This document shows, piece by piece, positions 2,138-60,499 of a stretch of 64,000 bases of DNA. Both the position numbers and the translations under genes were made by a program. Below the pieces are notes generated by a model. The model searched no databases and was not told the origin of the DNA. It saw only the letters and a list, made by a program, of their open reading frames with translations. The stretch's first letter is position 1. Each line of letters begins with the position of its first letter. Source of the DNA: Bacteroidia bacterium (lineage in GTDB: Bacteria > Bacteroidota > Bacteroidia > Cytophagales > JAAEPT01); assembly GCA_030431525.1 (NCBI GenBank), contig JAUIJC010000004.1, forward strand, positions 62,001-126,000, read 5' to 3'.

Positions 2138-3430
2138 ATGGCGGAATTTGAAATGATGGCCAAAACCTTCCATGGTTTGGAAGATGTGTTGGCTGAGGAG
2201 CTAAAGCAGTTGGGTGCCAAGAATGTGCGTCCAAAAAACCGCTTGGTTTATTTTCATGGTGACAAGACCTTGATGTATACTGCCAACTATCGTTGTCGCA
2301 CGGCCTTAAGGATTTTGAAGCCAATTCTTCATGGCAATGCCGAAACCCCTGAAGAGCTGTATGATGCGGTTCTAAAGGTGGATTGGGCAAGCTTGCTTAC
2401 TCCAGAAGATACCTTTGCGATCGACTCTGTGATGACTGAAGGCACTGAAGAGCTTCGTCATTCCAACTTTGTTTCCTTAAAAGTAAAAGATGCGATAGCG
2501 GATCAAATCCGTCGCAAATACAACCGCCGTCCAAATGTGGATGTGGAGAACCCAGATCTTTTGGTGCATATCCATTTCTTCAAAGGGCGATTCACGATTT
2601 CCCTCGATAGTTCTGGGGAGGCACTTCACCGCCGTGGTTACCGTAAGTCAACGGGTGGTGCACCAATTAACGAGGTGCTGGCCGCTGGCTTGGTAATGTT
2701 GTCTGGTTGGGACCGAAAGGAGAATTTCCTTGATGGCATGTGTGGTTCTGGAACGATTGTCATTGAGGCGGCGATGTACGCCAACAACATCGCTCCAGGC
2801 AGACTCAGAAAACGTTTTGGTTTCCAAGGATGGCGTGATTTTGACGCTAAGCTTTGGCGCCAGATTAAGCGTGATGCCCGTCGTGAGGAGGTGGAATATG
2901 AAGGGAAGATTATTGGTTCTGATTTGGACAAAAGTGTCATTCAGATTGCCACCCAAAACATTATTGCTGCCAAGTTGGATGACCATATCATCCTAAAGCG
3001 AAAAGGTTTCCAAGACACCACACCGCCGTCTGGTGGAGGTGTGGTAATTATGAACCCTCCGTATGATGAGCGTTTGGAAGTGGACGATATCAATTTGCTG
3101 TACAAGGAAATTGGACGCACGCTCAAGACCAATTATGTGGGGCACAGGGCTTGGGTAATCAGCTCAAATGCTGAGGCTTTCCAGTACATCGGCATGAGGC
3201 CAAAGCAAACCTTGCAGCTTTACAACGGTAAGTTGGAGTGTCAGTATTGCCAGTACGAGGTGTTTGAACAATCAGCGGATGAAGCGCCAGCTGAGCCAAT
3301 CAAACCTCAGAGAGAGGAAAAGAAGGCGCCAAGCGTAGCCGCTTCGAAACCACGAGAAGAAAAGCCAGTTAAGCCAGCTTCTACAGGTGAGGAAAAGCCT
3401 ATAAAGCGAGGGTTTAGCCGTCCAAAATAA
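2138..3430 (+). CDS. THUMP-domain class I SAM-dependent RNA methyltransferase (RlmL/Trm14-like)
   Basis: FLDGMCGSGTIVIEAA motif, NPPYDERL catalytic motif, N-terminal THUMP region; low-complexity basic tail. Confidence 0.93.
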   Translation: MAEFEMMAKTFHGLEDVLAEELKQLGAKNVRPKNRLVYFHGDKTLMYTANYRCRTALRILKPILHGNAETPEELYDAVLKVDWASLLTPEDTFAIDSVMTEGTEELRHSNFVSLKVKDAIADQIRRKYNRRPNVDVENPDLLVHIHFFKGRFTISLDSSGEALHRRGYRKSTGGAPINEVLAAGLVMLSGWDRKENFLDGMCGSGTIVIEAAMYANNIAPGRLRKRFGFQGWRDFDAKLWRQIKRDARREEVEYEGKIIGSDLDKSVIQIATQNIIAAKLDDHIILKRKGFQDTTPPSGGGVVIMNPPYDERLEVDDINLLYKEIGRTLKTNYVGHRAWVISSNAEAFQYIGMRPKQTLQLYNGKLECQYCQYEVFEQSADEAPAEPIKPQREEKKAPSVAASKPREEKPVKPASTGEEKPIKRGFSRPK

Positions 3431-3438
3431 TATAGTAC

Positions 3439-3921
3439 ATGTCCTATCAGCCAAAGTTTCGACAATTGACCGATGAGGAGCTCCAAGAGTTGGAAAAGGA
3501 GTTTGTACAGTTCCTCTGTGCAAACACTGTAACAGCCGATGACTGGGTGAAGGTGAAGGAGGAAGAGCCTGAGCGTGCCCATCAACTCATCGACATGTTC
3601 AGTGATGTAGTGATGGAAAAGGCCCTGACCAACATCAAATACTTGGAGCATCGCCAAGAGAAGGAACTAATGCTTTTTCATTGCAAGGAGGAAAGCATGG
3701 AACTAATTGGCTTGAATGTCCCTGCTGACGCTGATGTTGATTTACGGGAACCAGCGTCGGTTCAGGCTTACGTGGAAAATTCTGAGGATGGAGGACTTTC
3801 TGTTTTTAAGGTGGAAAAGCCTTATGCCAAATCCCGTGAGGAAGAGATGTTTGATATGACAAATACAGGGTGTTTGGTTTCTGATGGCGCCTTGTTTTAT
3901 CTGTTAGAAAAAATGGTCTAA
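3439..3921 (+). CDS. DUF6495-like protein
   Basis: RQLTDEELQELEKEFVQFLCANTVTADDWVKVKEEEPERA pattern; conserved neighbour type in Bacteroidota. Confidence 0.65.
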   Translation: MSYQPKFRQLTDEELQELEKEFVQFLCANTVTADDWVKVKEEEPERAHQLIDMFSDVVMEKALTNIKYLEHRQEKELMLFHCKEESMELIGLNVPADADVDLREPASVQAYVENSEDGGLSVFKVEKPYAKSREEEMFDMTNTGCLVSDGALFYLLEKMV

Positions 3922-58597: not shown

Positions 58598-58662
58598 GCT
58601 CCATTAGTCTAATCACCTGCCAACAGCTGTAAGCTTTGGCAGTGTGAATTGACTAATGGAGC
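58598..58662. repeat. REP-like hairpin A with locus-specific outer arms
   Basis: gctccattagtc taat[cacctgccaacagctgtaagctttggcagtgtg]aatt gactaatggagc. Confidence 0.88.
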
Positions 58663-58674
58663 AGGTAAAAGATC

Positions 58675-58741
58675 AGGTTATGTTGCCAAAACACCCTGCC
58701 AAAGTTTCCAACTGTTGGCAGGTGTTTTTGCAACATAACCT
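58675..58741. repeat. REP-like hairpin B (inverted) with locus-specific outer arms
   Basis: aggttatgttgccaaa[acaccctgccaaagtttccaactgttggcaggtgt]ttttgcaacataacct, ending at the RAYT stop codon. Confidence 0.88.
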
Positions 58742-59359
58742 TCAATCCAAAAGAAGATTATCGGGAAGGTTCAAGGTGGTTGATTGTTGATGAAAGGCAA
58801 TGAAATTCCTTTTCCCACCAAACCATTCCCAAATCTCGTTTCGCTCTAAAAGGGTTTTTGTATCAGAACAAAGGGCTTTGAATGAGGAATGAGGCCATTT
58901 CTCAAAGTTATTGGTCAATAGATGGGATTGCGGGTTGTGATGAATGTATTGGATTAGCCTTGTAAAATGGGATTCTTGTTCAATGGCAATTCTGTGGAAA
59001 GGTTGCTCAAAAAGGGTTCCTGTGCGTGAATATTTGAAGTTTATGGATTGTGTGTGGGAACTGAAAAAATGGGAGAATTGACGTGAGGGGAAGTTTTCCC
59101 TCCGAGATGCTGAAAATGTTCTCCATTCTTTAATGGTATTTTCAAGATGATCTTCAGTTTGAATTTTCACCAGCAAATGGAAATGGTTCTTCAGTAGGCA
59201 GTAAGCGTAAACTTTGGCTATTGGTGTGATGTACTTCTTTAGTCGCTCTAAAAATCCATTGTAATCTTCTTGCTCCAAAAAAAGATTGGTGCTGTTAATT
59301 CCTCGGTTGTAGATATGGTAGAAATGCCCAAACTGGAGTTTTCCTTGGTCGGAAAGCAT
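58742..59359 (-). CDS. REP-associated tyrosine transposase (RAYT; Y1/HUH, IS200-like)
   Basis: FGHFYHIYNRGINSTNLF, HUH motif KNHFHLLVKI, Tyr motif LIQYIHHNPQSH. Confidence 0.93.
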   Translation of the reverse strand: MLSDQGKLQFGHFYHIYNRGINSTNLFLEQEDYNGFLERLKKYITPIAKVYAYCLLKNHFHLLVKIQTEDHLENTIKEWRTFSASRRENFPSRQFSHFFSSHTQSINFKYSRTGTLFEQPFHRIAIEQESHFTRLIQYIHHNPQSHLLTNNFEKWPHSSFKALCSDTKTLLERNEIWEWFGGKRNFIAFHQQSTTLNLPDNLLLD

Positions 59360-59399
59360 TGTTGAAAAAGTTTAAAAAAAATGGGGTATGAGCGTGGTA

Positions 59400-59435
59400 C
59401 ACCTGCCAACAGCCGATAGGCTTTGGCAGTGTGTG
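59400..59435. repeat. REP-like hairpin C
   Basis: cacctgccaacagccgataggctttggcagtgtgtg. Confidence 0.85.
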
Positions 59436-59449
59436 TGAAAAAGAGCTCT

Positions 59450-59528
59450 TTATGTTCCGGCTTAGACTTATTCACACTGCCAAAGCTTCCAGCTGTTGGC
59501 AGGTGAATAAGTCTAAGCCGGAACATAA
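59450..59528. repeat. REP-like hairpin D (inverted) with 26-nt locus-specific outer arms overlapping the manA 3' end
   Basis: ttatgttccggcttagacttattcac[actgccaaagcttccagctgttggcag]gtgaataagtctaagccggaacataa. Confidence 0.93.
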
Positions 59529-60499
59529 GCCTCCAAAACCTTGAATTCAGGAGAAGGAATCAATTCCACTTTTTTAATCGATGCAGGAAGAAGGATTGCG
59601 TCTCCTTTTTCAAACTTGTACTCCTTGTCTTCATGTTTGATGGTCAACGCACCTTCAAAGCAAACAAAAATCACGAAGGAATCTAGGGTAGAGTAATCAC
59701 GGGTAACTGGCTGATTGCAGTTCAGTTTGTTCGTCGTGAAGTACTCGCAATCCACCAATGAAATTGGTTGGTTACGTTTACAAACGTAGTTTGTGCGGTA
59801 ATCTGAGTGATGGGTATAATCGATGGCCTCTAAGGCCTGATCAGTGTGCAACTCGCGAGGTTTACCGTCCTTGTCGATTCTATCGAAATCGTAGATGCGG
59901 TAAGTGATGTCCGAGGTTTGCTGAATCTCTGCCAAGAGCAATCCTTTACCGATGGTATGCACCCGTCCGGCCGGAAGGAAGAACACGTCACCTGCTTTCG
60001 CATTCTCATAATTGAGAATTTCAAGTAGGCGTTTTTCTTTTAGAAACTTAAGGTAGGTTTCAGGGTCGATTTCCCTGTTGAATCCACTAACCAATTGAGC
60101 TCCTTCGTCCGCCTGAAAAATATACCACATTTCGGTCTTACCGAAGGAGTCGTGGCGCTCTTGTGCTAAGCTGTCATCAGGGTGAACTTGGACGGAAAGG
60201 TCCGCGTTGGCATCGATGAATTTGACTAGAAGGGGGAACTCATCGCCGAATTGCTCATAGACTTTCTTACCCAGCAATTCGTCCTTGAAGGAGCTGATTA
60301 GTTCGGTAAGCGGTTTACCGTCTAAACTTCCACCATTAACGTGAGACACATTTCCTTCTACACCAGAAATTTCCCAAGTCTCCCCACAATTTGGTAGGGG
60401 TGAGAAGTCTTTGTTCAGAATGGATTTTATCTTTTGGCCTCCCCAGATTTTCTCTTTAAAGATGGGGTGAAATTTCAAAGGATAAAGGTTGTCTCGCAT
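59513..60499 (-). CDS. manA: Mannose-6-phosphate isomerase, type I (class I)
   Basis: YPLKFHPIFKEKIWGGQKI, VKFIDANADLSVQVHPDD, VFFLPAGRVHTIGKG. Confidence 0.95.
   Translation of the reverse strand: MRDNLYPLKFHPIFKEKIWGGQKIKSILNKDFSPLPNCGETWEISGVEGNVSHVNGGSLDGKPLTELISSFKDELLGKKVYEQFGDEFPLLVKFIDANADLSVQVHPDDSLAQERHDSFGKTEMWYIFQADEGAQLVSGFNREIDPETYLKFLKEKRLLEILNYENAKAGDVFFLPAGRVHTIGKGLLLAEIQQTSDITYRIYDFDRIDKDGKPRELHTDQALEAIDYTHHSDYRTNYVCKRNQPISLVDCEYFTTNKLNCNQPVTRDYSTLDSFVIFVCFEGALTIKHEDKEYKFEKGDAILLPASIKKVELIPSPEFKVLEAYVPA

Follow-up and report, generated by a model that had tools for sequence, protein, structure and literature searches.

Among the described REP-associated systems, the closest to the locus analysed here are the RAYT genes (REP-associated Y1/HUH transposases) of Bacteroidetes. 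In the passages of PMC6006769 that deal with TnpAREP subclass 2.6, the Bacteroidetes subclass, these genes are reported to be flanked by 'atypical secondary structures' found by manual inspection, and are characterized by the motifs NH[LIV]H and YIH[QN]NP and by hairpins devoid of GT[AG]G. Two further processes serve as points of reference; namely, IS200/IS605-type transposition, which makes no target duplications (PMC2817692), and template switching, the mechanism of which has been described (PMC8794818).

The locus lies in the window (the whole 64-kb stretch of DNA that was analysed), and its features are listed in Table 1. The initial annotation had read the 205-aa ORF as a RAYT with HFH and YIHHNP motifs, and both points hold. 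The protein carries KNHFH and YIHHNP, the HxH and Tyr motif columns are conserved (alignment, 32 homologs), and the sole match in an NCBIfam search was NF047646 (REP_Tyr_transpos) at 55 bits, below the cut-off of 80, with similar scores obtained for the other related RAYTs tested. A fold search with the AlphaFold model (pLDDT 91.6) returned the E. coli RAYT-REP complex 4er8 as top PDB match (E 3e-6), ahead of IS608 (E 5e-4) and ISDra2. The PDB sequence search with the RAYT gave no matches, and a weak Pfam match to PA_Ig-like, below cut-off, was disregarded. Identity as an IS200/IS605 element was rejected, the RAYT gene being single-copy in the genome and the doublets described below being surrounded by target duplications. 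Like members of subclass 2.6 (RAYT group 5), as characterized in the passages cited above, the protein is a Y1 HUH enzyme with NH-x-H and YIHxNP-type motifs, no GT[AG]G was seen at the foot of its flanking hairpins, further hairpin copies occur in the genome, and its relatives are mainly from Bacteroidota, by which the host organism would be one as well. YIHHNP conforms to the described motif, whereas NHFH departs from it, F being outside the listed L/I/V. Judged by these sequence features, the RAYT probably belongs to that Bacteroidetes clade and is of a kind already known. The locus type, too, is known, and what is new in it is the REP family; the passages of PMC6006769 on the subclass make no mention of private arms that covary, of the capture of a gene end, or of inverted ends with target duplications.

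Table 1. Features of the RAYT locus (positions refer to the window)
Feature	Position	Strand	Remarks
RAYT (REP-associated Y1/HUH transposase)	58742..59359	-	205-aa ORF
REP core A, Y type	58614..58646	+	loop CTGTAAG
Core A 5' outer arm	58598..58613	+	pairs with 58647-58662, 14/16
Core A 3' outer arm	58647..58662	+	
REP core B, Y type	58692..58724	-	loop TTGGAAA
Core B outer arm	58725..58741	-	abuts RAYT stop codon directly
Core B inner arm	58675..58691	-	complementary to 58725-58741, 16/17
REP core C, X type	59400..59433	+	no outer stem; loop 1 nt longer
REP core D, Y type	59473..59505	-	loop CTGGAAG
Core D outer arm	59506..59528	-	59513-59528 = last 16 nt of manA including stop codon
Core D inner arm	59450..59472	-	exact 23-nt inverted copy of 59506-59528
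Mannose-6-phosphate isomerase (manA)	59513..60499	-	3' end copied into core D hairpin

Related RAYTs are widely accompanied by hairpins. In a set of 80 relatives, which show 37-48% identity and come mostly from Bacteroidota and in part from Chloroflexi, a hairpin of at least 11 bp lies no more than 500 bp away in 72 cases and on both sides in 48; the corresponding figures for distant control windows are 3/55 and 1/55. The earlier view, which placed REP-flanked RAYTs mainly in Enterobacteriaceae, Pseudomonas and Stenotrophomonas, is not supported by the passages of PMC6006769 that described Bacteroidetes subclass 2.6 in 2018, nor by the flanking hairpins of these 72 relatives. RAYTs of the same clade were also observed in nine Chloroflexi/Anaerolineae loci (L070, L071, L078, L079, L088, L091, L092, L136 and L139), most of them with flanking hairpins; the occurrence of the clade in these lineages suggests transfer between phyla.

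All four cores of the locus are exact and stand in the order given by the initial annotation, A(+) B(-) RAYT C(+) D(-), and, as it had also stated, the core search of the window revealed no extra copy. Two BIME-like pairs do bracket the gene; they are not, however, the equivalent units they had been taken for, since both hairpins of A-B are of kind Y and C-D combines an X with a Y, where X and Y denote two hairpin kinds with loops of the CCGGAGG and CTGAAAG type, respectively. The long private outer stems had been overlooked: they measure 16, 17 and 23 bp in A, B and D, respectively, and are absent from C. The folding z-scores of A, B, C and D are -8.5, -8.2, -3.6 and -14.1, and no shuffle folds as well. 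At core D, the stop codon and last codons of manA lie within the outer arm and are copied exactly in the inner one, which is situated between C and D. Alignments with manA orthologs extend to residues 326-327 of 328; the orthologs have similar ending residues and no REP, and no such hairpin was seen downstream of their stop codons. Since this C-terminus is ancestral in the orthologs, the gene side is taken as the original and the inner arm of the hairpin as the copy. Another Y arm, at L034, likewise includes the stop codon of a gene, here that of a photolyase.

The whole-genome core search (4.24-Mb draft in 75 contigs) retrieved 66 matches at up to 3 mismatches, compared with none for the reversed-pattern control, so that further copies do exist. 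Among the 391 genomes of the order, with one genome per species, a dense core set occurs only here, and seven others have 1-3 weaker matches; the distinct REP family proposed at the outset is thus genome-specific, with 66 cores here and no dense set in the 390 others. Core-pattern matches in G135, G122 and G104 were set aside as unrelated or convergent, no long variable outer stem pairing being seen by inspection. The genus is represented by this genome only, and neither the RAYT nor the REP occurs in the single further genome available for the family. X(+)/Y(-) doublets account for most copies, with a spacing of about 61 bp and some 28 bp separating the cores. As in the REPIN/BIME systems of Pseudomonas and E. 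coli (PMC3116915), the replicating unit consists of two inverted REPs, the doublets are extragenic, one RAYT is linked to the family, and stem changes are compensatory. The family differs from them in the asymmetry of the X-Y doublet, the restriction of the variable stem to Y, the 14-bp ends, the 7-bp duplications and the absence of a 5' GTAG-type foot motif, the foot of Y being buried in the variable stem. Separately, a second, unrelated RAYT was observed at L032:1441-1941 (G000 C36:58091-58645; NF047646, 87.7 bits), flanked on both sides by a hairpin family of its own (GGTTCGAGAGTTCAGCGAAGCGCTCTCGGACC), which gives the genome two RAYT/REP systems.

The X-Y doublet constitutes an element of about 142 bp with 14-bp inverted ends, CTGRAGTTACGCAG being present at both. 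In the 13 copies whose two ends were placed by CTGRAGTTACGCAG, the flanking 7-mers match at 4.46 of 7 positions, versus 2.57 between copies (permutation p<5e-5); boundaries were set by eye on the end motif, and two of them were moved by 1-2 bases without gain in duplication score. In the same 13 copies, target duplications of 4, 5, 6, 9 and 10 bp gave no signal, and a length of 8 bp gave a weaker one (p=0.005), which was attributed to spill-over from the 7-bp signal. The clearest duplications are TAAAGCA/TAAAGCA (C73:88042), TAAAAA, TTAATC and TTATTC. The RAYT-adjacent cores A, C and D have no clear inverted ends. Two shortened derivatives were observed: L192 (G000 C73:88042-88122; 81 bp), with one hairpin, both inverted ends and a perfect 7-bp duplication, and L195 (G000 C22:43007-43056; 50 bp), with no hairpin and both inverted ends kept. 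In its length, non-coding nature, terminal inverted repeats, target duplications of fixed length and internal-deletion derivatives, the element resembles MITEs, from which it differs in holding two REP hairpin cores common to a RAYT locus. The doublet is MITE-like, and its ends and duplications are unexpected for single-strand HUH transposition; together they imply that its spread involves staggered double-strand cutting of the target. A search of the 75-contig draft for an autonomous partner or parental transposase with the same ends found none at up to 2 mismatches, the control count being equally high.

These ends and duplications also bear on whether the RAYT itself could move the doublets as single-stranded hairpins, with pairing selected in the transposition intermediate. 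This is possible but, on balance, somewhat doubtful: the cores flank the RAYT gene, 72/80 related RAYTs are flanked by hairpins, and compensatory changes have been reported in Pseudomonas REPIN hairpins (PMC3116915), whereas the doublets have 14-bp inverted ends and a 7-bp duplication of a sort that IS200/IS605 elements do not make (PMC2817692), and selection acting before insertion leaves the capture of the manA end unexplained. The initial annotation's claim that the REP family is served by this RAYT was likewise not confirmed, such 7-bp duplications not being made by IS200/IS605-type transposition, and it is still plausible.

The second distinctive property of the family lies in its Y hairpins. 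Outer stems, some 10-23 bp long, occur in 31/31 Y hairpins and in 0/36 X hairpins; the sequence of their arms is private to each copy, yet paired, with a pairing score of 14.2 for an arm and its own partner, 3.1 across copies and 0.5 after shuffling. When 30 Y copies are aligned, pairing is seen in 93% of the arm cells (62% in shuffles), covariation reaches 0.813 (0.215 shuffled; at most 0.165 with slid partners), and arm cells changed on both sides number 147 versus 37. Divergence from the consensus is 33-34% in the Y arms and 1.3% in the core stems, double transversions are frequent in the arms, and at pairs 2-15 Watson-Crick pairs fill 397 of 420 cells, with 3 G-T and 7 A-C. Most Y arms have a recognisable common consensus, and part of the arm variation is accordingly inherited with the element.

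Selection at the RNA level, with the Y hairpins serving as terminators or 3'-end stabilisers and the arms kept paired by compensatory mutation, would account for the position of these hairpins: by longest-ORF gene calls, 19/30 Y copies have their outer side turned towards the stop codon of a gene, at a distance of -16 to 22 nt in 16 cases, and T runs follow some Y hairpins. We nevertheless regard it as unlikely. G-T pairs are nearly absent from the arms and no commoner than A-C, although RNA would tolerate G-U, which DNA copying would not favour; double transversions are frequent, core D repeats manA codons exactly, and a block change in the related RAYT locus L103 fits a single copying event. 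An Rfam search gave nothing above threshold; the matches below it, to microRNA-type and leader families, were due to the hairpins.

Locus L103 belongs to a small set of relatives (L099, L103, L102, L144 and L166) in which private extended stems were also found. Loci L099 and L103 have a hairpin in common, which occupies the same position within their RAYT genes; its 3' arm is alike in the two and partly so in L089, and the complementary 5' arm occurs only in L103, where it arises through the block change. Locus L103 is a polarised case, one arm having been copied onto the other. In L102, the members of a paralogous pair are set apart by a block through which one arm comes to match its partner. 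The genome of L103 was searched for a larger covarying hairpin set, and only three copies were found, all at the RAYT locus. In-frame REP hairpins were also observed in the same region of the RAYT genes of L083, L089, L094, L099, L103, L105, L117, L128 and L135, and the RAYT CDS of L106 (gene 3001-3633) contains, about 227 nt in and in frame, a 46-bp near-perfect palindrome.

Taken at the level of sequence, the private paired arms, the exact copy of the manA end and the rewritten arms of relatives point to DNA template switching. Quasipalindrome mutation (PMC8794818, PMC7202029) is comparable in that reverse-complement blocks create or repair stems, and differs in that here the process recurs at one REP family and the 3' end of a host gene is copied too. 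That terminator hairpins were there first and received REP cores in their loops, the outer arms being old host terminators, would agree with arms that lie near stop codons and differ between loci, but is very improbable, given that many Y arms have a common consensus continuing into the inverted end of the element, that arms occur on the Y partner only, with the inner one between X and Y, and that the D arm covers conserved manA codons whose orthologs have no such hairpin after the stop.

The best explanation, in which we place moderate confidence as a whole, is that of a REPtron-like locus, in which a Bacteroidetes-clade RAYT (subclass 2.6) would be joined to its cognate REP family, combined with template-switched Y arms and spread of the doublet by staggered cutting. 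It builds on five observations, namely the copy number, the covariation, the copied end of manA, the inverted ends and the target duplications. The bulged core of about 33 nt would be the conserved hairpin probably recognised by the RAYT, and elsewhere in the genome it would travel as the X-Y inverted doublet, mobilised within its element probably by a transposase acting in trans. Folding of the core on the nascent strand would cause the polymerase to switch template and to copy one flank onto the other, which would homogenise the arms and sometimes capture neighbouring DNA, as may have occurred at manA. A more radical possibility, which we consider quite improbable, is that the REP hairpins of this RAYT clade are self-extending, growing outwards, the RAYT or a nicked intermediate priming fold-back synthesis that copies flanking host DNA, and the same system inserting the doublets with 7-bp duplications. 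If true, HUH enzymes would have a route of transposition that has not been described for them.

The way in which REPs spread is not yet clear, and a doublet with clear ends and a fixed duplication length offers a direct handle on the question; in this genome, its ends and duplications argue for a double-strand transposition step. The approximately 30 Y copies of a single genome would likewise form a natural record of stems whose perfect pairing is maintained through DNA copying and not through stepwise compensation. In this family, very strong covariation may arise without RNA selection, which bears on the use of covariation as evidence of functional RNA.
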